Origin: Pyrinomonadaceae bacterium
GTDB taxonomy: Bacteria; Acidobacteriota; Blastocatellia; Pyrinomonadales; Pyrinomonadaceae
Direction: 5' to 3'
DNA: 64,000 nt
Assembly: GCA_030841085.1 (NCBI GenBank)
Contig: JAVEDP010000039.1
Coordinates: 1-64,000, forward strand
Positions 1,097 through 36,112 of the stretch are shown piece after piece (within the stretch, counting starts at the first letter, position 1; every line of letters begins with the position of its first letter). Made by a program: the position numbers and the translations under genes. The notes under the pieces were generated by a model. It made no database searches. It was not told where the DNA came from and worked only from the letters and a program-made list of their open reading frames with translations.

Positions 1097-2738
1097 CAAG
1101 GAAATCGTTTAATCGCTCGGCCATTCGACCTGCCCGAAAGTCGAGAGTTTCTTCGTAAGCCTTATAATTCAAACGCTCTGAGTCTCTAAAGAAAAGTTGT
1201 TCCTCCGCTCTGTCCCGTTGGGTTGGCGATAATTCTCTATGGGTGACTTGAGGATCGCGATCACTCAACTCGGCGTTATCAGCTTGGGACAGGATCGCAT
1301 AATTAGCCGCACTGTTTAGCTTCTCTACTGGAACCTCAAATTGATGCATGAACTTCTTTGGAAAGATGTGATGAACAGCCAGGAGATCGCCCGTCACATC
1401 TCTAGCGGCAATCTCATTTATGGCTCTCCCGCTGGGCCAACTCTGAGCGTCTTGCGCCACGAGGTAAGCGAGATAAGTCTGCATCAGAGCGGAGTACATC
1501 CGCGTATTGCTCTTAATATCCTCCGGCTTAATCTTATAGAGACGGTTTTGGGGTATCTTCTTGATTAATAAGGAAGCTCTATTCTTTTGACGAGGCGATA
1601 ACTCCCGGATGGGATTGATATAAGTATTGATAGTCGTCTCTACCGAACCGCGGAAGAGAGCGCGAAAGCCCGTCAGCAAAAGGAAGCGCTTCAATTGCTC
1701 TTTGTCTGATTCGGAAATTTCCCCCGTGTTATCCTTTAGCAAATAAGCTACGGGAATGAGGGCATTCACCGATGGAAGCCATCGTCGGGTTGTCCACCCA
1801 AGCTCTTCGCGAACCAGACGACAAGCTAATCGAAGGCCTCGTTCCGTTTTGCGCCAAGACTCCTTTACATCCGATGTTTCTGTCGCCCAATTCTTCGGTA
1901 GTTTCGAGAAGCTTGAGTTTCCTCGATGGATTGTTATTAAAGCGCGAGTGACGAAAACAAAATTCAATCCCAAACTGCTTAACTCAGCCTCCTGAACAAA
2001 GTCTCGCATCGGTCCGACGATATGAGCTGTGGCCTCTTGTGATAACCGGGCCGCTTCAACATCCCCTGCCGAAAGCGAAGTTCCACCCTTATTCAGGCGC
2101 GCGAATAATTCAATTGCATTTTCTTCGTGCTCGTCCTTGAATTCCTCACAAAGCGCATCTACATTGAGCATTGACGCGACACGGTGAAGGCGCTTGCGAA
2201 CCTCTACTTCTTTTATTCTGTTCAGTCCAAGTTTATGACGCTCAGAAAGACTGTCTATCACGCTCTCGACACTATTAAGTAGATGGTTCTCATCAACGGT
2301 GTGAGTAGATATCAAATCTGACAACGGCACGAGCGTCGGATCTTCCGCCTCAATTCTCCTTTGCAGCGTCTTCTTCATCATTCCCAAGAAGAATTGCTCA
2401 TTCTCCAAATCGAAGAATGCGCGAGTGTTTAAATTCTCATCGGCTGCACCTTCTATCGCTCTCGACAGACTAGTAAGTCTTTGCTGGCCATCTAACAAAA
2501 AACCGTAAAAGTTGTCCATGGATCTCAGAGAAATCTGGTTACCGCCTGCTCTTCTTTTCGCTGCTCGATCGTGCCTTGTATTCCAAACGTAGAAACAACC
2601 TATCGGCCATTGCCGGTACAGCGAGTCCAGCAATTTAACTACCTTTGCCGGTCGCCAAACGTAATCGCGTTGCATTAGAGGCAAGCGAATTTCGCCGGTG
2701 TCAAAGCGTTTCACAAGATCAATTATTCTGACATCCAT
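1080..2738 (-). CDS. DUF262/DUF1524 protein, GmrSD-like type IV restriction or ParB-fold NTPase-HNH protein
   Basis: The N-terminus (residues ~1-80) carries the DUF262 (GmrS/ParB-like) pattern: LPLMQRDYVWR, LLDSLYRQWPIGCFYVW and GFLLDGQQRLTSL. The middle has an ELFARLNKGGTSLS motif typical of DUF262 proteins. The C-terminal third has a DUF1524/HNH-like element, HHIFPKKF followed by an asparagine-rich NYAILSQADNAELSD segment. Known GmrSD proteins cut glucosylated-hydroxymethylcytosine phage DNA using NTP, so a defence role is plausible but inferred. It stands alone, ATG start at 2738, with no partner methylase. The 19-bp duplication at its stop codon is annotated separately. Confidence 0.8.
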   Translation of the reverse strand: MDVRIIDLVKRFDTGEIRLPLMQRDYVWRPAKVVKLLDSLYRQWPIGCFYVWNTRHDRAAKRRAGGNQISLRSMDNFYGFLLDGQQRLTSLSRAIEGAADENLNTRAFFDLENEQFFLGMMKKTLQRRIEAEDPTLVPLSDLISTHTVDENHLLNSVESVIDSLSERHKLGLNRIKEVEVRKRLHRVASMLNVDALCEEFKDEHEENAIELFARLNKGGTSLSAGDVEAARLSQEATAHIVGPMRDFVQEAELSSLGLNFVFVTRALITIHRGNSSFSKLPKNWATETSDVKESWRKTERGLRLACRLVREELGWTTRRWLPSVNALIPVAYLLKDNTGEISESDKEQLKRFLLLTGFRALFRGSVETTINTYINPIRELSPRQKNRASLLIKKIPQNRLYKIKPEDIKSNTRMYSALMQTYLAYLVAQDAQSWPSGRAINEIAARDVTGDLLAVHHIFPKKFMHQFEVPVEKLNSAANYAILSQADNAELSDRDPQVTHRELSPTQRDRAEEQLFFRDSERLNYKAYEETLDFRAGRMAERLNDFLGLGKR

Positions 2739-3088
2739 ATCGTTCTCCTGCGTGAAGTGAAGAATGATAAAACAGGCCCAGTGAAAGTAGACGAAGGCCA
2801 GAAATCAAAGGTCACCGAAGGGTAGATCATAACTGCATTAAGTAACCGAAAACTAGACCGCGAAAAGGTAACGAGGTTTGAGGTCGAAGATTCCTGTCCA
2901 TTCCAGATTCACTATTTGGCAATTCTATCCCATCAAGCATTGGGTTCGGCAAAGATCTTTCCAAACGTCCTTGGGGTCAAGCACCCTCCCGCGTGAATCG
3001 GAATCTCGCGTTATTGGCCCGAGGCGCCGAGTATTACTGAGGCTCAGTTTCTCTTTTACTCTAATCTGCGTTGGGTTAGACTTTGCGC
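2739..3088. other. Intergenic stretch, nothing recognised
   Basis: About 350 bp between the divergently transcribed DUF262 gene and the VapBC-like pair. It should hold promoters for both, but I see no convincing -35/-10 pair, repeat or conserved small ORF. Reading frames here overlap on both strands and have no recognisable protein features. Confidence 0.5.
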
Positions 3089-3328
3089 ATGACCTCATAC
3101 GAAGAAATTCTGGAATCGGCAAAGCGGCTCTCTTCGACAGAGCGTTTACAATTGGCCGATGCTTTACTGGCTGAAGAGTTGGGCTTTGGTATGTGGCGCG
3201 AGCGCGAAGATATGGCCGACGCGGCGAACTACGTGTCCGCACTGCGCAAGGCCGAGATGCGCACGCCCAACGGCCGCGAGAAGACTCCCAAGGAGTTCCT
3301 GCGAGAGATAGAGACTTTGGATGAGTAG
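3089..3328 (+). CDS. VapB-like antitoxin of a PIN toxin pair
   Basis: Small acidic/basic protein (79 aa) beginning MTSYEEILESAKRLSS. The first half resembles short addiction antitoxins with a helical SSTERLQLADALLAEE segment. The second half is charged and would be the toxin-binding tail. I chose ATG 3089 rather than TTG 3083 because it is the only ATG at the start. Its stop overlaps the start of the PIN gene by 8 bp, a usual antitoxin-toxin arrangement with translational coupling. Family assignment rests mainly on context and size. Confidence 0.7.
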   Translation: MTSYEEILESAKRLSSTERLQLADALLAEELGFGMWREREDMADAANYVSALRKAEMRTPNGREKTPKEFLREIETLDE

Positions 3329-3719
3329 CCCCGCCTGGCTCAACCTCCCGAAGGCACTGGCGGACACAGGTGTTTTCATCCTCTGGTATCGCGGCGAACC
3401 TAAAGCGAAACTCTTCTTCCGCAACCCGAATATCGAGATCTACTACAGTCGCATGACGCGAAAAGAGTTGCTACGTCCTCCGATCAGCGATGCCGAGCGC
3501 CGGCGAATATTAATGATGTTGGGAACTTTGAGACAGGTTAATCCCGATCCAGCCGTGAGTGATGCGTACGCCTCACTTCTGCGTCGTTATCCGAATCTGC
3601 AACATCATTTGGCTGATACTTTGATCGCGGCTACGGCAATGGCGAAGAACCTGCCGCTCGTGACCACGAATGTCAGGCACTTCAAAGGTATTGCGGAAAT
3701 CGAAGTGGTTTCCTTTTAA
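3321..3719 (+). CDS. PIN-domain toxin (VapC-like ribonuclease)
   Basis: 132-aa PIN-domain protein. Acidic active-site positions are visible: D in ADTGVFILWYRG (residues ~15-16), E in RKELLRP (~49), and D in HHLADTLIAATA (~98), followed by LVTTNVRHFKGI, the usual T-x-N-x-x-HF close of a PIN fold. Such toxins cleave tRNA or rRNA when freed from the antitoxin. It overlaps its antitoxin by 8 bp. Downstream it converges on an orphan antitoxin-like gene with a gap of 2 bp. Confidence 0.85.
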   Translation: MSSPAWLNLPKALADTGVFILWYRGEPKAKLFFRNPNIEIYYSRMTRKELLRPPISDAERRRILMMLGTLRQVNPDPAVSDAYASLLRRYPNLQHHLADTLIAATAMAKNLPLVTTNVRHFKGIAEIEVVSF

Positions 3720-3721
3720 CT

Positions 3722-3937
3722 TCAGTTAGCGGATAGGATGCTACGAAGCGTGTCAGGGTCGCTTGAGAATGTTAGCGTGCCGTCGCGTAGCTCCCCGAGA
3801 CTAGTTTTGTAGTTCTCCTCGATCTCCCGCCGTCGCTCCTCGATCAGATACCTTTTGAGGAGTTCCTGCAATTCCTCCTTCTCGGCGGTTGAAAGCTGCT
3901 TTACATCTTCAACTACTCTTGAAAACTCCTGTGCCAT
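3722..3937 (-). CDS. Orphan antitoxin-like small protein
   Basis: 71-aa, strongly helical protein with the run VKQLSTAEKEELQELLKRYL followed by a charged tail and a C-terminal DGTLTFSSDPDTLRSIL segment. This composition is common in antitoxins that precede RelE- or PIN-type toxins. No toxin lies downstream on its own strand; instead it faces the VapC-like gene tail to tail with 2 bp between stops. It may be a leftover of a second addiction module or act in trans. ATG 3937 is the start, preceded by GGAGGTTT in the message. Confidence 0.6.
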   Translation of the reverse strand: MAQEFSRVVEDVKQLSTAEKEELQELLKRYLIEERRREIEENYKTSLGELRDGTLTFSSDPDTLRSILSAN

Positions 3938-4172
3938 TGCTAAACCTCCATAGTTCTACCGGAGGATACTTGATTTGGTTATCGGCTTTCAATTCCTAGA
4001 CCGGCGTGAGCCTGTAGCTGGTTTTGATTCCTTGACACCTGGTGGTGAGATCCCCGTGAACCACCTGGCGGCGGAGGAGTCGGTTTGCTCAACGTATTGG
4101 GTTGGGCTAAAATTCATGATTCGCTACTTGTCGATATTCTCGTCTGTAGCGTGTCAACTAGTTATTCGTCCC

Positions 4173-7034
4173 ATGGCAATAGATCTCATCACAGTCCGAG
4201 GTGCGCGCCAGCACAACCTCAAGAACATCAACGTAGAAATACCCCGCGACCGCTTCACTGTAATTACGGGCCTGTCCGGCTCTGGTAAGTCTTCGCTCGC
4301 GTTCGACACGATTTATGCCGAGGGGCAGCGCCGTTACGTCGAATCGTTGTCCGCTTACGCCCGCCAATTTCTGGATCAACTGGAAAAGCCCGACGTCGAT
4401 TCCGTCGATGGTCTCTCGCCGGCAATTTCAATCGAACAAAAGACAGTTTCGCGCAGCCCGCGTTCGACCGTCGGCACCGTCACCGAGATTTACGACTACA
4501 TGCGCCTGCTGTTTTCTTCAATTGGGCTGCCGCATTGCCACAAGTGCGGCGCGGCAATTACGCGCCAAAGCGTTGAACAGATCGTGCAGAACGTGCTTGG
4601 TCTTACTGAAGGCGAACGCGTAATGATTCTCGCGCCGATTGTGCGGGGACGAAAAGGTGAGTTCAAAAAAGAACTCGAGAAACTCGCGAAAGACGGCTTC
4701 CTGCGCGCGCGCATCGATGGCGACCTGTTATCTCTGGATGAAGAAATCAGACTCGATAAACGTCGCAATCATTCAATTGAGGCGGTCGTGGATCGCCTTT
4801 TGATCAAGCCCGGAATCAATGAGCGTCTAACCGAATCAGTGAGAACGGCACTCAAGTTAACCGGCGGCGCCGTGCTGGTTTCGGTGGTCGACGGTGAAGA
4901 AAAACTCTATTCGGAAAAGATGGCCTGCGTGATTTGTGGCATCAATGTGCCGCCGCTCGAGCCGCGTTCGTTCTCGTTCAACTCCGCTTACGGCGCCTGC
5001 AAGCGCTGTCATGGACTGGGCACTGTGCTCGAAGTCGCTGCCGCTAAGTTGATACCCGACGCAAACGTCGCGGCCGACAAACTCACTTTCATGGGCCAGG
5101 CAGATCGCCAGGGCTCGGCATATCTAAAGAGCGCGCTGGCTGCGGTCGCCAAACATTTCGGGGCTGACATCAGGAAATCATTTGCTGAACTACCAAGAGA
5201 AGTCAGCGAAGGATTCTTGCGCGGCGTCGCCGGCGAGTTAACGTTCCGCCAGGGACTTTATTCTTATCAGAATCCCTGGAAGGGTGCGGTCCGCTGGCTT
5301 CACGATCGTTTGAACGAAGCGCCTTCGGAAAAAGTAACCGCCGCGCTTGAAGAGCTGGTGTCCCCTGTTGTTTGTCCGGATTGCAAGGGCCGGCGGCTTA
5401 GATCTGATTCGCTATCGGTCCGGCTGGGCGGGCGTGGCATCGCCGAATACACGGCCCTGCCGATTGAAGATGCTGTGCCTGCGTTTGAAGCGATTAAGCT
5501 GAATCCTCGCGAGGAACAAATAGCGGGACAGATATTGCGCGAGATAAAGAATCGCCTGCGCTTTTTAGAAACTGTTGGCCTTGGTTACATAACTCTTGAT
5601 CGATCTTCTGCAACTTTGTCTGGCGGTGAAGGCCAGCGCATTCGTCTCGCCACTCAAATAGGTTCGCAGCTTCGCGGCGTACTTTACGTGCTGGACGAAC
5701 CGTCGATCGGCCTGCATCCGCGTGATAATCAAAAATTGCTCGATACCCTGACGGCGTTGCGCGACCTGGGCAACACGGTGCTGGTGGTTGAGCACGATGA
5801 AGAAACAATTCGGCGCGCCGACTACGTGGTCGATCTTGGACCAGGCGCCGGCGCGCATGGTGGTGAACTAGTTGCTTTCGGAACAGCGGACGACGTGGCG
5901 AACAACCCACGTTCGATCACCGGTCTTTATATTCGCGGCGCCAAAAAGATTGAAGTGCCAACACATAGACGAGCGGCAAACGGAAAATATCTGACGGTGC
6001 ACGAAGCGCGCGCTAATAACTTGAAAGACATCGACGTCTCGTTTCCACTGGGTTTGTTGACGGTGATTACGGGCGTTTCCGGTTCCGGCAAATCTACTTT
6101 GATCGGCGACATTTTGTATCCCGCTTTGGCGCGCCATCTTTATGGCTCGCTGGCCGAAATGGGAACCTGCGCTTCGGTAGAAGGTCTAGAGCACATCGAC
6201 AAAGTAATCGAAATCGACCAGTCACCTATCGGTCGCACCCCGCGTTCAAATCCGGCGACTTACACGGGATTGTTCACGCCGCTTCGCGAACTCTATGCAA
6301 TGCTTCCCGAATCGCGCGAACGTGGTTACAAGGCCGGGCGGTTTTCTTTCAACGTTAAAGGTGGACGCTGCGAAGCCTGCGAAGGCGACGGCATGAAACG
6401 CATCGAAATGAATTTCCTGCCGGATGTTTATGTGCTTTGCGACGTCTGTCGCGGCGCTCGTTACAACCGCGAAACGCTTTCGGTGAAGTACAAAGGGAAA
6501 TCCATTGCCGAGTTGCTCAACACCACGGTCGATGAAGCCCTGCCGATTTTGGAGAACGTTCCGCAAATTCAACAGAAACTACAAACGCTGCTTGATGTCG
6601 GTTTGGGATATTTAAAGCTGGGGCAATCGGCAACGACGCTGTCGGGCGGCGAAGCGCAACGCATCAAGCTAGCGAAAGAACTTTCCAAGCGCGCGACGGG
6701 TCGGACGGTCTATATGCTTGACGAACCGACGACCGGACTGCATTTCGCTGACGTTCATAAACTGCTGGACGTCTTGCAGCGGTTGGTATCCCTCGGCAAT
6801 ACCATCATCGTCATCGAACACAATCTCGACGTTATTAAGTCCGCGGACTACATCATCGATCTTGGACCAGAAGGCGGCGAGCACGGCGGACGCGTCGTTG
6901 TCGCAGGCACACCTGAAGACGTTGCGCGCTCGCGCCGTTCGCATACCGGCCACGCGTTGCGCCCATTGCTCAATGGCCGCTTGGCGAAGAACGGTAACGG
7001 TAACGGGCGAAGAGAGGAGAAAAGGATTGCGTAA
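4173..7034 (+). CDS. uvrA: Excinuclease ABC subunit A
   Basis: DNA-damage recognition ATPase of nucleotide excision repair, which loads UvrB at lesions. Two ABC modules are present: Walker [15 protein letters not shown] near residue 31 and [13 protein letters not shown] near residue 632. There are two LSGGE(G/A)QR signatures, two D-E-P Walker B motifs ([12 protein letters not shown] and [12 protein letters not shown]), and zinc-finger CxxC pairs (CHKCG/CVICG/CKRC, and CEACEGDG...CDVCRG). The open frame extends upstream to 3975, but the conserved [16 protein letters not shown] start is ATG 4173, giving 953 aa, the normal length. No strong Shine-Dalgarno is visible. Cytoplasmic. Confidence 0.97.
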
Positions 7035-20294: not shown

Positions 20295-22781
20295 TTAGAT
20301 AGAGATTCTTCGTAATCGCAGCGCATTCGCAATTACCGAAACTGAACTAAAACTCATCGCCGCGGCGGCAATCATCGGACTCAGCAGTACGCCAAAAAAC
20401 GGATAGAGGATGCCGGCGGCCACCGGCACGCCCAGCGCGTTGTAAACAAACGCGAAGAAGAGATTCTGTTTGATGTTCTTCATGGTGGCGCGGCTGAGCC
20501 GGATGGCGCGCACAATGCCGCGCAAGTCACCTTTTACCAAAGTAACCGCCGCGCTCTCCATCGCCACGTCAGTGCCGGTGCCCATCGCAATACCAACATC
20601 GGCCTGGGCCAACGCCGGCGCGTCGTTGATGCCGTCGCCGGCCATAGCCACTCTGCGCCCTTCAGCCTGCAAACGTTTCACGACTTCGGCCTTCTGGTTT
20701 GGTAAAACTTCGGCGACCACCTCGTCAAGGGAAAGTTTCGCCGCGACGGCTCGCGCGGTCGTTTCACTGTCGCCGGTCAGCATCACGATACGAATGTTTT
20801 CCGAGTGCAATTGTTTGATCGCTTCGACACTCGTAGCTTTAATCGGATCTGCAATGCCGATCAGGCCAGCTGCTTTTCCGTCAACGCCGATGAACAACAT
20901 CGTCTGCCCGTCTGCGCGCAACGCTTCAGCGCGCTCGTTCAGACTGTTGATATCGATATTCACTTCCACCGCGAGCGCGCTGTTGCCGAGACTAACTTGC
21001 CGGCCATCAACTTCGCCTCTTATCCCTTTGCCGGTGAGCGATGCAAAATCTTTTGTGTTGGCCAGCGAAATTCCACGCGCCGCGGTTTCAGCGATTATCG
21101 CTGCGGCCAACGGATGTTCGCTGCTGCGTTCGACACTCGCGACGAGCCGCAGCAAAGTTTGTTCGTCAAAACCGGAAAGCGCGATCAGCGAAAGTACTTT
21201 TGGTTTGCCTTCAGTCAGCGTGCCCGTCTTGTCGACCACCAGGGTATCAATCTGTCGCAGCACCTCGATTGCTTCAGCATTTTTGAATAACACGCCTGTT
21301 TCCGCGCCTTTTCCGCTGGCCACCATGATCGACATGGGGGTCGCCAGGCCGAGCGCGCAGGGGCACGCAATGATGAGCACTGCAACCGCGTTGACCAAAC
21401 CATGGGCCAGGCGCGGCTCTGGTCCCCACAAGCTCCAGACAACAAAAGTCAAAATAGAAATCGCAAACACCGCCGGAACAAAATAAGCCGAAACGAGGTC
21501 CGCGAGTTTTTGAATGGGCGCTCGACTGCGCTGCGCTTCCGCTACCATCTGCACAATTTGCGCCAGCAGGGTTTCGGCTCCGACACGCTCGGCTTGCATT
21601 ACAAACGAACCGGTACCATTGACCGTGGCGCCAATTACCCGGTCGCCTGGTAGCTTCGCCACCGGAATAGGTTCACCGCTGATCATCGATTCATCAATCG
21701 CACTGCCGCCTTCGGTTATTACTCCGTCGACGGGAATTTTTTCGCCGGGACGCACCCTCAACTTGTCTCCAACGTGCACCTGTTCGAGTGCCACGTCTTC
21801 GTCCGAGCCATCTGCGCGAATGCGCCGCGCTGTCTTCGGCGCCAGTCCGAGCAGAGCTTTGATCGCCGCGCCGGTGCGACTGCGCGCGCGCAACTCGAGA
21901 ACCTGGCCCAGCAACACCAGCGTCGTAATCACGGCAGCGGCTTCAAAGTAAAGCGGCACGTTGCCCATCGAATCGCGAAACGACTGCGGAAAAATTTCGG
22001 GAAAGAGTTGCGCAATCACGCTGAAGAGATAAGCAACACCAACGCCAACTCCAATCAGCGTGAACATGTTTAGCGAGCGATTGACCAGCGACTGCCAGGC
22101 GCGCACAAAGAAAGGCCACGCGCCCCAAAGCACCACCGGCGTCGCCAGCGCCAGTTCGATCCAACCCCGAATCGCCATGGGCAGTAACTTGTCGAGCGGC
22201 GCGCCGGGAATCAATTCGCTCATGCCGATCAGCAGCAGCGGAACTGACAACGCGAAACACACCCAGAATCTTCGCGACATCTGCTTTAGTTCAGGATTCG
22301 CTTCATCGTCGAGTGAAACTGTGCGCGGCTCGAGCGCCATGCCGCAGATCGGGCAACTGCCCGGCGCGTCGCGAACGATTTCCGGATGCATTGGGCAGGT
22401 GTATTCGATCTTTTGTTTTGGGACCGTGACGGTCACCGGCTCCAGGGCCATGCCACATTTTTGGCATGAGCCCGGTTTTGACTGGCGTACCTCCGGATGC
22501 ATCGGACACGTGTAGGTGCTCGCGTCTTCAGCTTTTGCGATGACACTGGCGCGCTGTATTGCGACCGGTTGAGGCGTCATCGAGACGGCGGATTTATTGA
22601 CGAACGAGCCGGGATCGCTTTGAAACTTCGCGAGGCAATGTGTGCTACAGAAATAATATGTTTGGCCGTCGTATGCGAAAGACCCGGCGGCATTTTTCGG
22701 CGATACGGTCATGCCGCAAACTGGATCGATTGCTGGTGCTGGGCCACTCGGAGCATGACTGATTTCATTTGAGCGATGCAT
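20295..22781 (-). CDS. copA: Copper-translocating P-type ATPase with YHS and heavy-metal-binding N-domains
   Basis: About 828-aa P1B ATPase that exports Cu(I). Order from ATG 22781: a YHS domain ([11 protein letters not shown] ... YYFCSTHC), two copies of the short heavy-metal-binding motif ([25 protein letters not shown] and [24 protein letters not shown]), then membrane helices. Next come the actuator (GEPIPV), the CPC transport motif ([13 protein letters not shown]), the phosphorylation site DKTGTLTEG, the SEHPLA motif and [16 protein letters not shown]. The open frame reaches 23021 but the extra 80 residues overlap the divergent promoter; the AGAGAAGAA site supports 22781. It borders a copper-protein cluster. 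Confidence 0.95.
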
Positions 22782-22835
22782 TTCTTCTCTTGCCTTGTTT
22801 ATAATCGCCGCGCCCCTTAACCCGAGGTTGCCGGC

Positions 22836-22863
22836 TTGAAGGCATTGCCTGGAACAATAAAAT
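22836..22863 (+). promoter_or_regulatory. Possible promoter of the ABM gene
   Basis: TTGAAG (22836-22841) and TAAAAT (22858-22863) are spaced 16 bp, about 25 nt before the ATG of the next gene, in the narrow divergent gap shared with copA. The match is only moderate. A metal-responsive regulator site was looked for and not found. Confidence 0.35.
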
Positions 22864-22887
22864 TCAGAATCACAAAGGAGAATAGTA

Positions 22888-23187
22888 ATGGTTACTGTAG
22901 CATTGCTTGTGCGGCTGGAAGCAAAGCCCGGAAAAGAAGCTGAAGTTGAAAATTTCCTAAACAGCGGACTAGCGCTGGTCGAAGCCGAGCCGGAAACTAC
23001 TGCCTGGTTTGCAATCCGCATGGGACCGTCAACGTTTGGAATCTTTGACGCTTTCCCCGATGATTCAGGACGTCAGGCACACCTCTCGGGAAAAGTTGCT
23101 GCGGCCTTGATGGCCAACGCTTCCACGCTGCTGGCCCAACCGCCAGTTATCGAAAAGGTTGATGTGCTGGCGGCAAAACTTCCCTGA
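22888..23187 (+). CDS. ABM-domain (antibiotic biosynthesis monooxygenase-like) protein
   Basis: 99-aa ferredoxin-like-fold protein: [23 protein letters not shown], then [23 protein letters not shown] and GKVAAALM. Proteins of this fold include small monooxygenases and haem-degrading enzymes; many have no known substrate. A good AAGGAG lies 10 nt before ATG 22888. It is divergent from copA and upstream of carbonic anhydrase. No catalytic residues can be assigned. Confidence 0.85.
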
Positions 23188-23284: not shown

Positions 23285-23929
23285 ATGAAAGAATTGGAAG
23301 AACTACTTGAAAAAAATAGAATCTGGGCCGAGGGCATCAAGGCGCAGGATTCCGAATTTTTCCATGCGCTCGCCCAGCAACAGAATCCGCGCTATCTGTG
23401 GATCGGTTGTTCGGACAGTCGCGTGCCCGCCACCCAACTCGTCGGTTTGCAGCCCGGCGAGATGTTCGTCCATCGCAACGTGGCAAACCTGGTGGTCCAT
23501 ACCGACTTCAACTGCCTGTCGGTGATGCAATTCGCGGTCGACGTGTTGGGGGTCAGTCACATTATCGTCTGCGGCCACTATGGCTGCGGCGGCGTGCAGG
23601 CAGCCATGCAGAACCTGCAACTCGGTTTGATCGACAACTGGCTAAGGCACGTGCAGGACGTAATGCACAACCACGCGGCGCTACTTACAAAAATAGATGA
23701 CGAAACAAAGCGCCTCAACAAGCTTTGTGAATTGAATGTGATTGAACAAGTGCTGAACGTCAGCCGCACCACGGTCATGCAGAATGCGTGGGGTCGCGGG
23801 CAGGAGTTGGCCGTACATGGCTGGATTTACGGGATTGGAGATGGCCTGCTCCGCGATTTAAACATTTGCATTACGAATCAAAACGAGCTGTCGGCCGCCT
23901 ATGAAAAGGCTGTTAATGCCTCTCATTAA
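23285..23929 (+). CDS. can: Beta-class carbonic anhydrase
   Basis: Zinc enzyme interconverting CO2 and bicarbonate, cytoplasmic. Ligands and the dyad are visible: CSDSRVPATQLVGLQPGEMF (Cys, Asp-Arg), HRNVANLV, then IIVCGHYGCGG with the His and second Cys. The C-terminal GWIYGIGDGLL motif is also present. The open frame begins at 23159, but the real start is ATG 23285 (MKELEELLEKN), giving 214 aa, the family length, and avoiding overlap with the ABM gene. It overlaps the convergent TlpA gene by 17 bp at the 3' end. Confidence 0.95.
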   Translation: MKELEELLEKNRIWAEGIKAQDSEFFHALAQQQNPRYLWIGCSDSRVPATQLVGLQPGEMFVHRNVANLVVHTDFNCLSVMQFAVDVLGVSHIIVCGHYGCGGVQAAMQNLQLGLIDNWLRHVQDVMHNHAALLTKIDDETKRLNKLCELNVIEQVLNVSRTTVMQNAWGRGQELAVHGWIYGIGDGLLRDLNICITNQNELSAAYEKAVNASH

Positions 23930-24422
23930 TACGTACTGCAGAAGTTTTGGTAAGTAGAGCTTTGATTTTCTCCTCGAACTCCTCCGGAAAGATCACGCCT
24001 TCGATCACCGCGCGCACGTTTCCCGCGCGATCAATCACAACCGTCATCGGCAGAGTTTCGCTTTCGGTAAACAGAAGCTTCGTGGCTTTTGTGCCCAGAG
24101 TGACCGGGTAGTTTACTTTTGTTTTCCGTGCGAAGCGGCGCACTTCCGCGAGCGTCTGGGGCGGATAAGTAACGCCAATAATCTGCAGCCCGTCACGCCG
24201 GTACTCCCGCTGCCACTTGATGAGTTCCGGAATTTCCGTCCGACAAGGCGCGCACCATGTTGCCCAAAAATTGATAAGCACTACACTTCCCTTGTAATCC
24301 TCAAGACGAAAAGTACTCCCCTTAATGCTCTTAAGTTTCAGGGCCGGTGCGGGCCGCGGCGTCTGCGCCAGAGGAGCAACTGGTGCAAGCAACAGCAACA
24401 AAGTGATGACAGCTACTCGCAT
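23913..24422 (-). CDS. Periplasmic TlpA/ResA-like thiol-disulfide protein
   Basis: 169-aa exported thioredoxin-fold protein with a signal peptide (MRVAVITLLLLLAPVAPLAQ), the active site WATWCAPCRTEIPEL near residue 57, and a cis-Pro region SETLPMTVVIDRAGNVRA. Such proteins keep haem or copper-site cysteines reduced. It begins 3 bp after the HMA outer-membrane gene and so is in its operon, pointing to a role in metal-thiol chemistry. Convergent with carbonic anhydrase. Confidence 0.9.
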   Translation of the reverse strand: MRVAVITLLLLLAPVAPLAQTPRPAPALKLKSIKGSTFRLEDYKGSVVLINFWATWCAPCRTEIPELIKWQREYRRDGLQIIGVTYPPQTLAEVRRFARKTKVNYPVTLGTKATKLLFTESETLPMTVVIDRAGNVRAVIEGVIFPEEFEEKIKALLTKTSAVRINERH

Positions 24423-24425
24423 GAC

Positions 24426-25919
24426 TCAAAAAAGATATTTAACTCCGAGCAGAATATTTCGATCGTTACGCAGGACCGATGGACCAGTGTTGCGTACCAA
24501 AGGAAACTGAAAACTCGCTTCGATCACGAATTGGGGCGCAGCGGCATACTGTAGCCCGGGCGCAAGGTAGTACTCAGTCGAATTGCTTCCCGCCACAGGT
24601 GTGCCGGCCAGCCGGCCTAAGCTGCGATGAACGAAAGTGGTTTCCATGATTAAGAATAGTTCGTGACCGGGAGCGGCGTAGTGGCGCGGCAGCAACACAT
24701 ACTCCGTGTCGGTGTTGAGGCGAACTTCGTGGCCCATGCGAAAGCCGTCGCGCTCAGCACGCAAAATACCTTCAGCGTTTCCGCCAAAAATAAATCTACC
24801 GCCCGCCTGCGAGAATGCAAGATCGAAGTGCGGAGAAAAGCCACCGCTGATCGGCGTCAGTTGTTGGCGCACAAATGCAGGCGCGTTCACCTGCAAAGCG
24901 GTCGGCGGATCTTTTTTACCTGTCGGCAGTTCTAAACCGACGCGTACCGCCGCTTGCCGATCTCCATAAGTCTTGACCTTACGAAAGAAGCGGTACTTGG
25001 CCCATGCAGTTATGTTTCCCAAACCTGCACCCGCCACCGAACTCGTGCCGTCCCCGAATGATGTGCGCGAGACTGGCACCTCAACTTCCAATTGCACGCG
25101 AGGGGATGGCGTATAAGAAACACTTACATCGAGGACCTGACGATCGACATTCAGATTGCCAAGGTGCTGATGGATAAGATAGAGGCGCGGAGTGACTGCG
25201 CCTCCCTTGTAGACTGTCAGGCCAGGTGAAGTGACGCGAATGGGCGCGGCTGGTTTTGCCGCAGATCCCGGCGACTCGTTCGGTTGTGCCGCGTACGCAA
25301 ACGAATCGGCATTAGCAGCAGCGAACCTGGCTGGAACAAACCAGGCGATGGGTTGTTCGTTGGCTTCGAAGAATGCAACTTTCGGCGCCGCTACGCTCGT
25401 TGGTTTTATCGCCGCGTGCGGAACGATTACTTCATGGCTGCTTGTCCCTTCGCCAACGGTTTTCCAGTCGCCTGTGATTTCAACGACGCTGTCGGCAGCT
25501 AAGCCGCCAATGACTTTGTCGATGTCATTGCCCTCTAGTATGAACCGCTGACCCGAGGCCGGGACCATTAGCGCCCACCGCTGATCTTCCTTAGCCAGCT
25601 TTCCCACCAAGGTAATGTTCGCGGCGTCGAGTGTATAGCCCGCCTTCTTCAGAGTTTCCTTCAGCGCGGCAAACGAAACCGGCTTGTCAGGTTTCGGCGT
25701 GAATACTCCGATACCCTTTTTGATGTCGGTCACCTGAATCTCTTTTAGTTTTGGTGCGTAGTCTAGACGGCTCACGGCCTTCTGAATGTTGAAGACTCAA
25801 TTGCCGCAAAGGTAGCCGGCGATGTGCATTTCAACTTGTTTGACCTGGGCCTGCGAGTCTGACGCGCCGCCAAACAACAAAACCAATCCCAACGTGGCTA
25901 ACGAAATTATTTTTCTCAT
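24426..25919 (-). CDS. HMA-domain outer-membrane protein with an in-frame TGA (candidate selenoprotein, or nonsense-mutated gene)
   Basis: From ATG 25919 one frame runs through a signal peptide (MRKIISLATLGLVLLFGGAS), then QVEMHIAGYLCGN, a single TGA at 25797-25799 (codon 41), and VFNIQKAVSRLDYAPKLKE into the rest. The first ~95 residues form a MerP-like HMA domain (GYLC-G-N-x; GIGVFTPK; LKKAGYTLDAA). TGA sits where the second Cys of CxxC is expected, so Sec would give CxxU. A second domain has lipocalin/OB-like sequence. The C-terminal ~250 residues form a beta-barrel ending in GVKYLF. If TGA is a stop, translation could restart at GTG 25775. It is followed 3 bp later by a TlpA gene. Confidence 0.75.
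25765..25783 (-). promoter_or_regulatory. Candidate bacterial SECIS hairpin after the TGA
   Basis: In the message the segment AGAAGGCCGTGAGCCGTCT can pair AGA with TCT and GGC with GCC around loop CGTGA, with one mismatch. The loop lies about 20 nt after the TGA and has G at its second position, both compatible with bacterial SECIS rules as I know them. The stem is short. A competing stem GTCTTC/GAAGGC is also possible. Weak evidence by itself. Confidence 0.35.
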
Positions 25920-26310: not shown

Positions 26311-28221
26311 CTAATGCGTACTGTGCGTGCTGCTCATGTCCATCTTTCCGGGCCGGAAGCGCAGGAATATTTTCCACGAAACTGGATTGTTGCCGTAAAG
26401 CTGATCGAGCACCGCGGGTTTGGAATAGAAAGTCACATCGCTGCCGAGGGCCATCGACACGTTATTGTTTGTGAACAATTCACGCGCGCCGCCGAAAGTG
26501 TAAGCGCCAATGCGGAACGAAGGATGGTCGTCAGTAATTCCCAATCGCGCTCGATCGACGGCACGCAGCAGCTCGTTCTTGTCCACCAATTCCAGACGCG
26601 TATAGAGATAATTCTTGTCCAGGAAATTTACAGTGGACTCAAACGTATAACCGTTGAGGTTATGGGTTTCACCCGAACTGCTGGTGTGATTGCGGCCCCA
26701 AACAAAAGCCGAAGCCCAGTTGCCACGCTTGAGCGGTTTGTTGTACTGGACCGAGGCCGTTGTGCGGCGGATGTCAGTGTCGGCTTCCGAAGCCTCGGGA
26801 CTTCGCAGGAAGCCGTAGGACGCCTGAATGACCCAGTTTTGATTGGGCATGATCGAGATGCGCGCCGATCGCGAGTTCCATTTGTGAGCATCGAAGTTGT
26901 AGCGATTCTCATCAGGCTCGCGTCCATTAAAAATCGAACCTTCCAACTTCAGCCAGCGGTACGTGAATCCGGTCGTCAACACACCAAATGCAATATGCGT
27001 TGAGTCCTGCAGGTGATGAGCAAGCGTTGCCGCGGGGTTCTCCGACGCGGACATGCGATGCATGAACGCTACTGGTCCAAGCGCGGGTTCGCCGGGATAA
27101 CCAAAGTAGGTGAACCAGGTGCCGCGCTCGCCTACAGGATGCGTGTACTGGGCCGACAATTCCATAAACAGATCGTGTGGATGCTGCCTGTCGATCAGCG
27201 GCTGGCCTTTGTAGGTCTCGCCGGTTTGAAACAGCAGCGGCGAACCGCCCGGCGGAAATGTAAAGGGCTCAAAGCTGAACATGCCGCGCAGTTGCAAAGT
27301 GCCCTTGCCAAGTTTGTGATAGGCCATCGGCATAAACCAGTTTGCGGACTCGAACTTGGTCACACCTCTTGGACCACCCTGGCGATTAACGCCGACGACC
27401 GCGTTGTAGTGAAACATCAGCAACCAGTCGCCTGACTGTTTATGAATCATGTGCATTGGTCCAGAGGATGGTTGCCAGGTAGTTCCGGAACCCATCGCGC
27501 CCATTGACATAATGTTTGTGTCACTCGAACCCACGCGGATGCCCATATCGTTGCCGGCCATCACCATTAACGGACCCAGGTTCATAGAGTCTGTGCCCGA
27601 CATTCCCGGCATGTCTTTCATTGCACCACTGGCGGGCTCGCCACTGTTCGGTGCATTCATGTCCATATTGCCCATAGGCGCGGCGGGTTGATTGCCATGC
27701 GTGTGACCAGTTCCCGTTGCGGGACTCGCCGCCGGCATCGGCATGTTCATGTCCATCTTTTGCTGTGGCGAAGCTTGCGGATTCGGTGAAAGTGAACTCG
27801 CCGGCATATTCATCCCCGGCATGTTCATGTCCATCGGTTGCGGCGACGCTTGCGGATTCGGTGACGGTGAACTCGCGGGCATATTCATCCCCGGCATGTT
27901 CATGTCCATCGGTTGCGGCGACGCTTGCGGATTCGGTGACGGTGAACTCGCCGGCATCTTATGACCCGGCATGTTCATCCCCGGCATGCTGCTCATATCG
28001 TGCTTTTTTGCCGGCTGCTTCCTGCGCACCGTCGGTTTCCGCTTTCGCGCCGCCTTTCTTTTCGTCTTCGCTTTGACCTTAGGTTTGGCCTTGCTCATGC
28101 CCGGCATCTTGGACATGTCATGTCCCTCATGCTGCGCGAACACCGCCTGGCCCATCGCTAGAAAAGTCACAACAGCAATGATTAACAGCAAATTCTTGTG
28201 CAGTGAAAACATCTTGTTCAA
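26311..28221 (-). CDS. Met/His-rich exported protein with repeat region and beta-barrel-like domain
   Basis: 636-aa exported protein. The signal segment (NLLLIIAVVTFLAMGQAVFA) is followed by a Lys/Arg-rich stretch, then Met-rich repeats built from MPGMNMPASSPSPNP and QASPQPMDMN units (25-26 residues, three copies), then HTHGNQ and GMSG words. The C-terminal ~370 residues are barrel-like strands (GDWLLMFHYNAVVGV, FMPMAYHKLGKGTLQLRGMF, WKIFLRFRPGKMDM). Met motifs of this kind bind Cu(I). It starts the metal operon going to 25937, 24426 and 23913, with 14-17 bp gaps. I do not know the exact family of the C-terminal domain. Confidence 0.85.
   Translation of the reverse strand: MNKMFSLHKNLLLIIAVVTFLAMGQAVFAQHEGHDMSKMPGMSKAKPKVKAKTKRKAARKRKPTVRRKQPAKKHDMSSMPGMNMPGHKMPASSPSPNPQASPQPMDMNMPGMNMPASSPSPNPQASPQPMDMNMPGMNMPASSLSPNPQASPQQKMDMNMPMPAASPATGTGHTHGNQPAAPMGNMDMNAPNSGEPASGAMKDMPGMSGTDSMNLGPLMVMAGNDMGIRVGSSDTNIMSMGAMGSGTTWQPSSGPMHMIHKQSGDWLLMFHYNAVVGVNRQGGPRGVTKFESANWFMPMAYHKLGKGTLQLRGMFSFEPFTFPPGGSPLLFQTGETYKGQPLIDRQHPHDLFMELSAQYTHPVGERGTWFTYFGYPGEPALGPVAFMHRMSASENPAATLAHHLQDSTHIAFGVLTTGFTYRWLKLEGSIFNGREPDENRYNFDAHKWNSRSARISIMPNQNWVIQASYGFLRSPEASEADTDIRRTTASVQYNKPLKRGNWASAFVWGRNHTSSSGETHNLNGYTFESTVNFLDKNYLYTRLELVDKNELLRAVDRARLGITDDHPSFRIGAYTFGGARELFTNNNVSMALGSDVTFYSKPAVLDQLYGNNPVSWKIFLRFRPGKMDMSSTHSTH
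27741..27968. repeat. In-frame 75-78 bp tandem repeats in the Met-rich gene
   Basis: The word GCATGTTCATGTCCATC recurs at 27741, 27819 and 27894, spacings 78 and 75 bp, both multiples of three. The repeats encode the copper-binding-type Met motifs. Copies 2 and 3 are nearly identical, implying recent duplication. Confidence 0.92.
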
Positions 28222-28471: not shown

Positions 28472-28900
28472 TTAGTTGTTCGTGTTCTTATGCTTCATCT
28501 CTTTCATTTTCATCTCGCACGAATCACCGCAACAGCCGCAGCAACCTGCCATGGTCGAGTCGGCCGCGTGATTCTTCGCGTCGTCTTTCATCTTCATGTC
28601 ACACGAGTCACCGCAACAGCCGCAGCAATCTGCCATGGTCGAGTCGGCCGCGTGATTCTTCGCGCCCTCTTTCATCTTCATGTCACACGAATCGCGGCTA
28701 CAGCAGCTGTCGTGCTTCGAGGACTGCTCTTTCGCACCTTTCATCGCTGCCGAATCGTGATGACAGCACGCCGTCGTGCAACACGACTCAGTGGTTTTCT
28801 TTTGATCGCTTTGCGTAATGGTTTGCGCCAAGGCAAGGTTTGAAAGAAACAGACCGAGTGCGAGCGCCAAACCGAGTCCATACCGGTTCATATTTTTCAT
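28472..28900 (-). CDS. Cys-rich exported metal-binding protein with 28-residue repeats
   Basis: 142-aa exported protein: signal peptide (GLGLALALGLFLSNLALAQ), then ESCCTTACCHHD, HDSCCSRDSCDMKMK and two repeats containing NHAADSTMADCCGCCGDSCD separated by 84 bp (28 residues), ending EMKMKEM. The many CC, CxxC and MxM motifs imply tight binding of Cu(I) or another soft metal, in the periplasm or outside. It is upstream of the Met-rich operon on the same strand, separated by the palindrome array. Function is inferred from composition. Confidence 0.85.
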   Translation of the reverse strand: MKNMNRYGLGLALALGLFLSNLALAQTITQSDQKKTTESCCTTACCHHDSAAMKGAKEQSSKHDSCCSRDSCDMKMKEGAKNHAADSTMADCCGCCGDSCDMKMKDDAKNHAADSTMAGCCGCCGDSCEMKMKEMKHKNTNN

Positions 28901-33751: not shown

Positions 33752-36112
33752 TCAAGCAGAACGGACCAGACGGAAGCCGAAATTCTGATGTCTTGTAGTA
33801 GGGGGATACCAATCCCGGTAGGTGGCGGAAACTGGTATTTGCCGGTCTTTGGGATCGCTGGCATAGGAACCGCCGCGCGCCACAACCCATTCTTTCGACG
33901 CGGAGGGAATCTCGGCCGCATTGTTGTAAATCGAGGCTTTTGAAGAAGTCCACTCCCAGGCGTTGCCGATGAGATCAACCACACCCCAACGATTTTTCCC
34001 TTCAGGATAGGTGCCTACTGGCTGCGGAGTGGCTTCTCTTACGACCGCGTGACGGTCCTGCCACGTATCACCCCAGGGGTAAGTTTTGTATTCGCCACCG
34101 CTGCGCGCCGCAAACTCCCATTCCTCCTCGGTCGGCAGGCGATAGGTGACGCCGTCACGCTTTGAACGCCAGGCGGCGAAAGCTTCGGCATCCTTTGGCG
34201 AAACATTTACCACCGGCCACTGCTCTTGGCCGGGTAGTGGTTGCCCTCTCACCCAGTGACTGGGAACCTCGTAGCCCATGTCGCGGACAAACTCGGCATA
34301 CTCGGCGTTGGTAACTTCGGTGCGGTCCATAAAAAACTTCGACACCGTCACCGAGTGCTCAGGCCGTTCCTGCGGTGGTCCATCGTTACGGCCCATCTGA
34401 AACGTGCCGCCAGGAATTTCCACCAGATCGGCCTTAGTTGTCCCACTCGGGTTGTTGGTTGGATTGGTTGGTGGAGTCGTTGGACCAACGCCGGTAGCAG
34501 CAGGTTTTGGACGAGTTAGAAAGTAAGCAGTACCACCGCCGGCAATCAACAGGACAACGAGCACGACACCGCCAATAAGCAACATGGACTTGCCCTTGGC
34601 CGGCGGCGCAATCGTGCCCGGCAGCGATGACGAAACTCCAGGAAGAGAGCTTGCAACACCAGGAAAACTGTTGCCGCCTGCGCCGCCAGTATTCACTCCG
34701 ACGGCTGGCGCGGATTCGGCAACAGTAGCGCCCGGATGCATGCTGGTCGCCAAACGAGAGAGGCGTTCTTCGAGTTCTTTCGCTTGCTTCTCAACGCGCT
34801 CCATCTGCTCACGCGCCTGGCGTTCTCGCTCAGCACGCTCTTCTTCTTCCTTGCGCTTTTGTTCCTCTTCTTCTTTGCGCTTGCGTTCCTTTTCCTCGGT
34901 CGCCTGTCGGCGGGCTTCGGCTTCGCGACCCAATTCGTCGCGCGCAATCTGATCGCGTTGCTGCTGTTCTCTTTCGTACTCTGCGCGCGCCGAGGCAATT
35001 TGTGCTTGTTCTTCCGCGCCTAATGCTGACGAGCTAACGGTTCCCGCCATTGAATCGAAAGCGACCTGCGAATTAGGAGAAACTGACTGGCCGCCGGTGC
35101 TGACGGCCGGCGAGTGCATGGTCGCGCTCGCATCGAGTTGTCCAGTCTGCCGGTTGCTGTGCATCGTTGAGCCAAAGTCGCCGATGGCCGCGCGCAATTC
35201 ATCGAGGAATACTTCAACCGAAGGCGTGCGGTCCGCTACTTCCTTCTCAAGGGCATGCTGCACAACTGCTTCGAGACGTGGCGAAACGTCAACTCCCATC
35301 GACTTGAAAGTCGGAAGCGGCAGCGTGAGGTGCTTCTTCATGATTGAAGGAATCGACGAGCCTTTGTACGGAACATCGCCGGCGAGCATTTGGTAAAGAA
35401 TGATTCCCAGGCTGTAGATGTCGGCGCGCGCATCGGGCTCGTCATCCGACCATTGTTCCGGCGCCATATAAAAAGGAGAGCCCATCAGCCCGCTGGTCTT
35501 GGCTTGAATAAACGAACCGAGCAATTCACCGGACTTTATTTTGGCCAGTCCGAAGTCGAGGATCTTCAGACCCTGCGAAACCGGCTGGCCCAACTGGGTC
35601 ATGATGTTCAAAGGTTTGAGATCGCGATGCACGATGTTTTGGCGATGTGCGGCCGCTACACCGGCGCCAATGGCCGAGGCAAATTCCAGGGCGCGCGCCG
35701 GCGGCATTACTTTTTCGTCGGCCAGAATGTCCTGTAACGATTTGCCGTTAACGAACTCCATCACCAGAAAAGGCATAGTGCCGCGCACCACACCAAAGTC
35801 TGTAACGGAAATAATATTTTGATGACGAATGGCGGCGGCGGCCAACGCTTCCTGGCGAAAGCGTGTAACGAGCATTGGATCGTTGCCAACCAAATCGGGC
35901 AAGATCACTTTGATAGCGTGCGATGTCTTGAGGAAAATATGCCGCGCCTGAAAAACAACTCCCATGCCTCCCTGGCCCAAACGCTTCTCCAACTGATAGC
36001 GCGCGTCGAGTATTGGTTCCCCCAGCAGCGAAGGCGTGGTGGCATCGCCGTCCTGCGGACAGTGGTTTATGTCATCGGGGAAACAGCGCCTACAGGCTGG
36101 GCATTCTTTCAT
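33752..36112 (-). CDS. Ser/Thr protein kinase fused to an FGE-sulfatase (SUMF1-like) domain
   Basis: 786-aa membrane kinase. Order: zinc ribbon (MKECPACRRCFPDDINHCPQ), kinase domain ~32-300 (GQGGMGVVFQARH, AIKVI Lys, HRDLKPLN catalytic loop, DFGLAK, APEQW), then a long charged coiled coil (EKERKRKEEEEQKRKEEEE region). One membrane helix (MLLIGGVVLVVLLIAGGGTA) leads to an extracytoplasmic FGE-sulfatase fold (VEIPGGTFQMG, RTEVTNAEYAEF, RLPTEEEWEFAAR, GNAWEWT, FGFRLVRSA). Active kinase residues are intact. FGE Cys residues for formylglycine formation are not visible, so the outer domain is probably a binding or sensor module. Confidence 0.93.
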   Translation of the reverse strand: MKECPACRRCFPDDINHCPQDGDATTPSLLGEPILDARYQLEKRLGQGGMGVVFQARHIFLKTSHAIKVILPDLVGNDPMLVTRFRQEALAAAAIRHQNIISVTDFGVVRGTMPFLVMEFVNGKSLQDILADEKVMPPARALEFASAIGAGVAAAHRQNIVHRDLKPLNIMTQLGQPVSQGLKILDFGLAKIKSGELLGSFIQAKTSGLMGSPFYMAPEQWSDDEPDARADIYSLGIILYQMLAGDVPYKGSSIPSIMKKHLTLPLPTFKSMGVDVSPRLEAVVQHALEKEVADRTPSVEVFLDELRAAIGDFGSTMHSNRQTGQLDASATMHSPAVSTGGQSVSPNSQVAFDSMAGTVSSSALGAEEQAQIASARAEYEREQQQRDQIARDELGREAEARRQATEEKERKRKEEEEQKRKEEEERAERERQAREQMERVEKQAKELEERLSRLATSMHPGATVAESAPAVGVNTGGAGGNSFPGVASSLPGVSSSLPGTIAPPAKGKSMLLIGGVVLVVLLIAGGGTAYFLTRPKPAATGVGPTTPPTNPTNNPSGTTKADLVEIPGGTFQMGRNDGPPQERPEHSVTVSKFFMDRTEVTNAEYAEFVRDMGYEVPSHWVRGQPLPGQEQWPVVNVSPKDAEAFAAWRSKRDGVTYRLPTEEEWEFAARSGGEYKTYPWGDTWQDRHAVVREATPQPVGTYPEGKNRWGVVDLIGNAWEWTSSKASIYNNAAEIPSASKEWVVARGGSYASDPKDRQIPVSATYRDWYPPTTRHQNFGFRLVRSA

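Follow-up and report, generated by a model that had tools for sequence, protein, structure and literature searches.

An in-frame UGA codon in a gene of a Pyrinomonadaceae bacterium and its probable reading as selenocysteine in a predicted outer-membrane protein with an HMA domain

The stretch of DNA analysed here, hereafter the window, comprises 64,000 nucleotides from a Pyrinomonadaceae bacterium, and on its minus strand a reading frame starts with ATG at 25919, meets a single internal stop, TGA at 25799-25797, and then stays open to 24426. This raises the question of whether the codon is decoded as selenocysteine (Sec) or is merely a lesion in an ordinary gene, and what the function of the protein may be.

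A reading frame with one internal TGA

Residues 36-42 of the frame read Y-L-C-G-N-TGA-V, in the wider context GYLCGN-TGA-VFNIQKAV. An intact signal peptide and HMA domain, interrupted only by a TGA in place of the second Cys of a CxxC motif, had been described in the original prediction, and the frame does read so, the motif being Cys38-Gly-Asn-Sec41. Read through, the product has 497 residues with Sec at 41. The gene itself terminates in TGA, at 24428-24426, and for this reason a general reassignment of UGA to a sense codon in this organism was rejected. The following features, all on the minus strand, were assigned:

24426 to 25919, minus strand: predicted selenoprotein gene (translation; TGA at this codon in 19 homologues, full-length or partial)
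25848 to 25919, minus strand: signal peptide, residues 1-24, predicted cleavage SQA/QVK (by eye)
25632 to 25844, minus strand: HMA domain, residues 26-96 (Pfam HMA, E 1e-4; AlphaFold model)
25806 to 25808, minus strand: Cys38 of the CxxU motif (invariant in 19 homologues)
25797 to 25799, minus strand: putative Sec41 codon TGA (TGA in 19 genes, TGC in genome G157)
25765 to 25783, minus strand: SECIS-like hairpin AGA-A-GGC / CGTGA / GCC-G-TCT (synonymous constraint; conserved position and sequence)
25404 to 25631, minus strand: OB-like domain, residues 97-172 (AlphaFold model, OB-fold matches)
25248 to 25403, minus strand: variable linker, residues 173-224 (many gaps; low synonymous share)
24429 to 25247, minus strand: predicted outer-membrane barrel of the PF13557 (Phenol_MetA_deg) type, residues 225-497, with C-terminal YLF (Pfam; separate homologous barrels; beta-rich low-confidence model)

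Homologues were searched for in 162 genomes of the class and in a contig collection (Pyrinomonadaceae/Acidobacteria MAGs), and duplicates were removed. Nineteen homologous genes, that of the window included, were found in 18 genomes of 13 genera, all of one class (families f1 and f7). TGA occupies the codon of residue 41 in 19/19 of them, in the context GYLCGNU(V/I)(F/Y)NIQKAV, at protein identities of 54-73%. Residues M31-N40 are nearly invariant, and almost all homologues have A-(E/Q)V at the end of the signal peptide. Among the 19 genes, synonymous changes account for 73% of the pairwise codon differences upstream of the TGA (codons 31-40) and for 65% downstream of it (codons 42-60); this excess on both sides means that the two segments are translated in one frame. 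The share is just 11% in the linker (residues 173-224). When the island of the window was scanned against related loci, TGA 25799 was the only in-frame TGA aligned to TGA (once to TGC) in all of them, with highly identical flanks, and no other in-frame TGA of the island was convincingly conserved in the relatives.

A nonsense mutation or an assembly error in a single strain, which had initially been left open, is favoured by nothing except the presence of the stop codon. An identical TGA recurs in 19 genes from 18 separately assembled genomes, at such divergence and with purifying selection downstream, which makes an error untenable, and this explanation can practically be disregarded. The gene was also said to be intact downstream, with a barrel and a TlpA partner, and this holds: the frame is open to 24426, purifying selection continues after the TGA and the gene for TlpA follows 3 nt further on. 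A second copy of the fused gene in one of the genomes (L053, G063:C32) has a TAG codon and lacks a stretch of the barrel, and it looks like either a decaying duplicate or an assembly variant.

The twentieth homologue, from genome G157 (family f9), has TGC at this codon and the motif CGYC, and the sequence of the hairpin is kept. Here, HMA-OB and barrel are encoded by two separate genes, followed by that of TlpA. Judging by its sequence, this is a Cys form with a relic of the hairpin element. Alignment of homologues at codon 41, proposed as a check on the Sec hypothesis, has thus given TGA in 19 genes and Cys in one close and many distant relatives.

The downstream hairpin and the selenocysteine machinery

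The hairpin AGAAGGC-CGTGA-GCCGTCT (25783-25765) starts 13 nt and has its loop 20 nt after the TGA, as had been predicted. It is short, consisting of AGA/UCU, an A.G mismatch and GGC/GCC, with G at the second position of the loop CGTGA. Bacterial SECIS elements are reported to carry a guanosine in a small apical loop a short distance downstream of UGA (PMC1088965), and the features of this putative element match them. Its folding energy, calculated for the single sequence, is no better than that of shuffles (z -0.13), and the argument from the hairpin alone, as first put forward, is weak; it becomes strong only with the homologues. Codons 46-51 span the greater part of the hairpin; their codon identity between homologues is 89-100% versus a gene mean of 45%, and after correction for codon usage they form the most constrained six-codon run of the gene, a level that 0/20,000 column permutations reached. 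In the divergent homologue L061, the loop is altered and both stem arms are retained. The evidence for the hairpin is therefore synonymous constraint, not folding energy.

The source genome (G000, 98.9% complete) contains two tRNA-Sec genes with 73.3 and 67.7 bits (Rfam cut-off 47), both identified as tRNA-SeC(tca) by ARAGORN, and encodes SelB (359 bits), SelA (541 bits) and SelD (354 bits). All of selA, selB, selC and selD, the search for which had been suggested with the original prediction, are consequently present. The gene of SelD (L018, G000:C29:109349-110278) has an in-frame TGA in the N-terminal motif SCSG-TGA-AAK, and SelD is itself probably a selenoprotein, as far as its sequence allows one to judge. 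Sec-containing SelD is known, with Sec at this N-terminal motif. The two tRNA-Sec genes (L001, G000:C10:60168-60262, and L002, G000:C4:20689-20783) are 93% identical and both lie near contig ends; downstream of both there is a similar coding sequence, dprA-like by eye and 77% identical. Four tRNA-Sec genes occur in another genome, G118, and two of these are separated by 2 kb.

The presence of tRNA-Sec is little informative for the gene under study because 145/162 genomes of the class carry it. Across the phylum, tRNA-Sec did not separate Sec from Cys forms, being found in 10/16 Sec carriers and 8/14 Cys carriers. Of the six Sec carriers in which tRNA-Sec was not found, five (G131, G185, G016, G400 and G421) encode SelB or its distal part, and the sixth, G262, gave only an EF-Tu-like match for SelB. 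This last genome, 95% complete, has a UxxU gene (L097, G262:C32:392-670), and neither tRNA-Sec nor full SelB was found in it.

Under another explanation, UGA may be read by a near-cognate tRNA, or the main product may start at GTG 25775 (449 aa), with a 40-codon upstream leader. Gene callers would report precisely this 449-aa ORF, and some termination at UGA is normal in selenoprotein genes. However, GTG 25775 lies inside the HMA domain and leaves the product without a signal peptide, and the 40 upstream codons are conserved as protein, as the near-invariance and synonymous share given above indicate. Read-through by another tRNA does not predict a constrained hairpin, and TGC in G157, together with the UxxC and UxxU variants described below, places Sec or Cys exactly at the metal-ligand positions. 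Both versions are very improbable. Because of the machinery, the conserved TGA, the two-sided selection, the constraint on the hairpin and the exchange of Sec and Cys at both positions of the motif, we consider it very probable that UGA 41 is decoded as Sec, although there is no biochemical proof and Sec has not been observed in the protein. Presumed decoding would involve SelB and tRNA-Sec, guided by the hairpin 13 nt downstream.

The predicted metal site, the barrel and their neighbours

The HMA domain (PF00403) of the gene scores 23.0 bits (E 1e-4) against a Pfam cut-off of 24.8, with U scored as Cys, and Phenol_MetA_deg (PF13557) scores 18.8 bits against a cut-off of 22; separate barrels homologous to that of the window reach 35.7 and 32.8 bits, above the PF13557 cut-off. 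AlphaFold, run on alignment A4 of the HMA-OB part, gave an HMA and an OB-like domain with pLDDT 93. The best matches of the HMA half are HMA domains of copper ATPases, CopZ and MerP (1osd), with Z about 7 and 67-75 residues aligned; this Z is modest, yet in the model the match spans whole domains and agrees with Pfam. The OB-like half matches OB folds such as those of SSB proteins, YgiW and AspRS. In the model of the whole protein (pLDDT 57) the barrel is not usable, being beta-rich and of low confidence. It may be inferred from the domains that the protein is exported, with the C-terminal barrel in the outer membrane and the HMA and OB-like domains facing the periplasm.

The neighbours include the following genes:

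23913 to 24422, minus strand: TlpA/ResA-like thioredoxin, 3 nt 3' of the gene (Pfam AhpC-TSA, 2.3e-23)
20295 to 23021, minus strand: heavy-metal P-type ATPase with YHS and two HMBD domains, a neighbour in the island of the window
26311 to 28221, minus strand: Met-rich (MNMPGMNMP) protein on the same strand as the predicted selenoprotein gene, without a Pfam match

In 15 related loci, with that of the Cys form in G157 among them, TlpA is encoded immediately after the gene; it is absent there in L057 although the contig continues. The Met-rich protein also adjoins the gene in G139 and is encoded upstream in L058. Near the relatives there are genes for MerC (G249) and CopZ-type proteins (G016), for a fragment of an HMA/ATPase (G281) and for a cupredoxin domain (G139). 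This neighbourhood points to soft metals, copper first, without proving it.

Positions 28472-28900 (minus strand) encode a secreted protein rich in Cys, in which a repeat of the type ADSTMADCCGCCGDSCDMKMKDDAKNHA occurs three times; it is possibly a metal sponge, and a relative occurs in the same order in G139. In locus L080 of G139 (1973-5791, minus strand), the TlpA frame runs without a stop into the cupredoxin domain and then into a type I restriction R subunit; this may be a genuine TlpA-cupredoxin fusion followed by an assembly join. At 33752-36112 (minus strand) of the window, a protein kinase domain is joined to an FGE-sulfatase (formylglycine-generating enzyme-like) domain.

In the proposed mechanism, Cys38 and Sec41 of the exported protein would form a two-ligand HMA site for a soft metal, likeliest Cu(I) and possibly Hg(II) or Ag(I). 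The metal would be passed to or from the barrel for crossing of the outer membrane, in an undetermined direction, and the adjacent TlpA would keep the Cys-Sec pair reduced. As a ligand, Sec would be softer and more reactive than Cys. In our opinion, Sec insertion combined with an outer-membrane metal site is, as a whole, the best explanation and a likely one. The particular scheme of a Cys38/Sec41 soft-metal site, exchange with the barrel and TlpA as reductant is inferred and is only rather probable; the identity of the metal and the direction of transport are deduced from neighbours and fold only.

The main rival to the metal role accepts Sec and regards CxxU as a redox centre (selenosulfide), in which the HMA domain would take electrons from TlpA and reduce a substrate or sense oxidants at the outer membrane. 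In favour of this, a redox function is predicted for most prokaryotic selenoproteins (PMC13188914), and a thiol reductase of the TlpA family stands next to the gene in the 15 loci mentioned. Nevertheless, CxxC in the loop that follows strand 1 of an HMA fold is a classical site of metal binding, the structures most similar to the model are copper domains and MerP, and the neighbours are metal ATPases, CopZ-type proteins and MerC. In UxxU variants the pair would be a diselenide, uncommon in a redox relay though known from Prx-like proteins (PMC2398784). The redox role is therefore considered unlikely and the metal role is preferred.

The HMA-OB family in the phylum and known selenoproteins

A profile of the HMA-OB part (alignment A4) was searched in 396 genomes of the phylum with TGA read as U. 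Many secreted HMA-OB proteins were found, the ligand motif of which occurs in four states: CxxC (for example, in L089, L091 and L092), CxxU (the window group and CPLU in L051), UxxC (UPFC in G022, UAVC, UEVC and UETC) and UxxU (UGLU, UPLU, USLU and UNAU in nine loci). The HMA-OB proteins of the UxxU loci (L048, L049, L088, L090, L093, L094, L095, L097 and L099) are secreted; their genes contain two TGA codons each and a tandem pair of conserved hairpins. In L072 of G022, tandem HMA-OB paralogues with UPFC and CPFC (5172-5582 and 6178-6531) adjoin a barrel gene and represent a natural Sec/Cys pair.

Hairpins are better in the UxxU and UxxC genes than in those with CxxC (Mann-Whitney p 6e-4 for folding z and p 4e-4 for stem length). 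Ten aligned genes, the nine UxxU genes and L051 with CPLU, share the two tandem hairpins with compensatory, both-sided changes at 4 pairs (1/500 shuffles), 96.7% of cells being paired compared with at most 48.3% when the hairpins are slid. These comparisons use small sets and are somewhat inflated by sequence relatedness.

A PF13557-like barrel gene adjoins the HMA-OB gene in most loci examined, and the two are fused in the window group; as far as can be inferred, this fusion is the best evidence that both work together. One may tentatively suppose, without yet favouring it, a phylum-wide outer-membrane system for soft metals in which sulfur and selenium are exchanged at either or both HMA ligands (CxxC, CxxU, UxxC and UxxU), selenium tuning the affinity or selectivity of a barrel-tied receptor, including two-Sec sites with two tandem conserved hairpins.

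Several known families resemble the protein in part. NF041115 (UxxU_metal_bind, metal-binding (seleno)protein) likewise has an HMA-type domain with Sec in the metal-ligand motif, but it is a 74-residue model without an OB-like domain or barrel, whereas the gene of the window has CxxU; the latter (14.7 bits) and those of its UxxU relatives that were scanned (32-51 bits) fall below the cut-off of 95. The UxxU metal-binding family is listed as a "putative mercuric reductase" in PMC13188914. The MerT/CopZ fusion-like heavy metal transport selenoprotein NF045683 (MerT_CopZ_Se) shares Sec in mercury/copper-type transport and an HMA domain, and this model (cut-off 375 bits, MerT part) did not match the gene at E 0.1. 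MerT (C/SxxU) and MerP selenoproteins occur in metagenomes, including MerP in GOS (PMC2398784, PMC13188914); the MerT fusion belongs to the inner membrane and the MerP selenoprotein is free, while the protein considered here has a predicted outer-membrane barrel instead. The score with MerP TIGR02052 is 18.4 bits, below the cut-off of 92.55. Cys forms of MerP and CopZ share the HMA fold and the two-ligand position, but have CxxC and neither an OB-like domain nor a barrel.

Sec in an outer-membrane protein is also found in TonB-dependent receptors of the FCYXU type (NF049945) and in the MtrB/PioB-type barrel GSU2204 (NF041027), which belong to other barrel families; neither was reported for the gene in the NCBIfam scan, where it stayed below every cut-off. 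PF13557/COG4313 outer-membrane channels (4rl8) share the type of the C-terminal barrel, and to our knowledge the known ones have no HMA domain and no Sec. An HMA-CxxU barrel protein is absent from the 2026 list of 119 prokaryotic selenoprotein families (PMC13188914), an absence only as complete as that review and leaving GenBank/RefSeq annotation aside. A literature search for an HMA-domain selenoprotein found nothing, and one for selenoproteins in Pyrinomonadaceae/Blastocatellia gave general selenium work only. Selenoproteins with HMA domains and selenoproteins of the outer membrane are thus each already known, and it is the combination HMA-OB-barrel with CxxU that looks uncatalogued.

Annotation pipelines would truncate the gene at UGA or place its start too far downstream. 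It may be concluded that this is an apparent uncatalogued family of outer-membrane selenoproteins in an abundant and little-studied group of bacteria, and the natural series CxxC, CxxU, UxxC and UxxU on one fold allows a direct approach to the advantage of selenium at a metal site, a question that concerns HMA selenoproteins in general.
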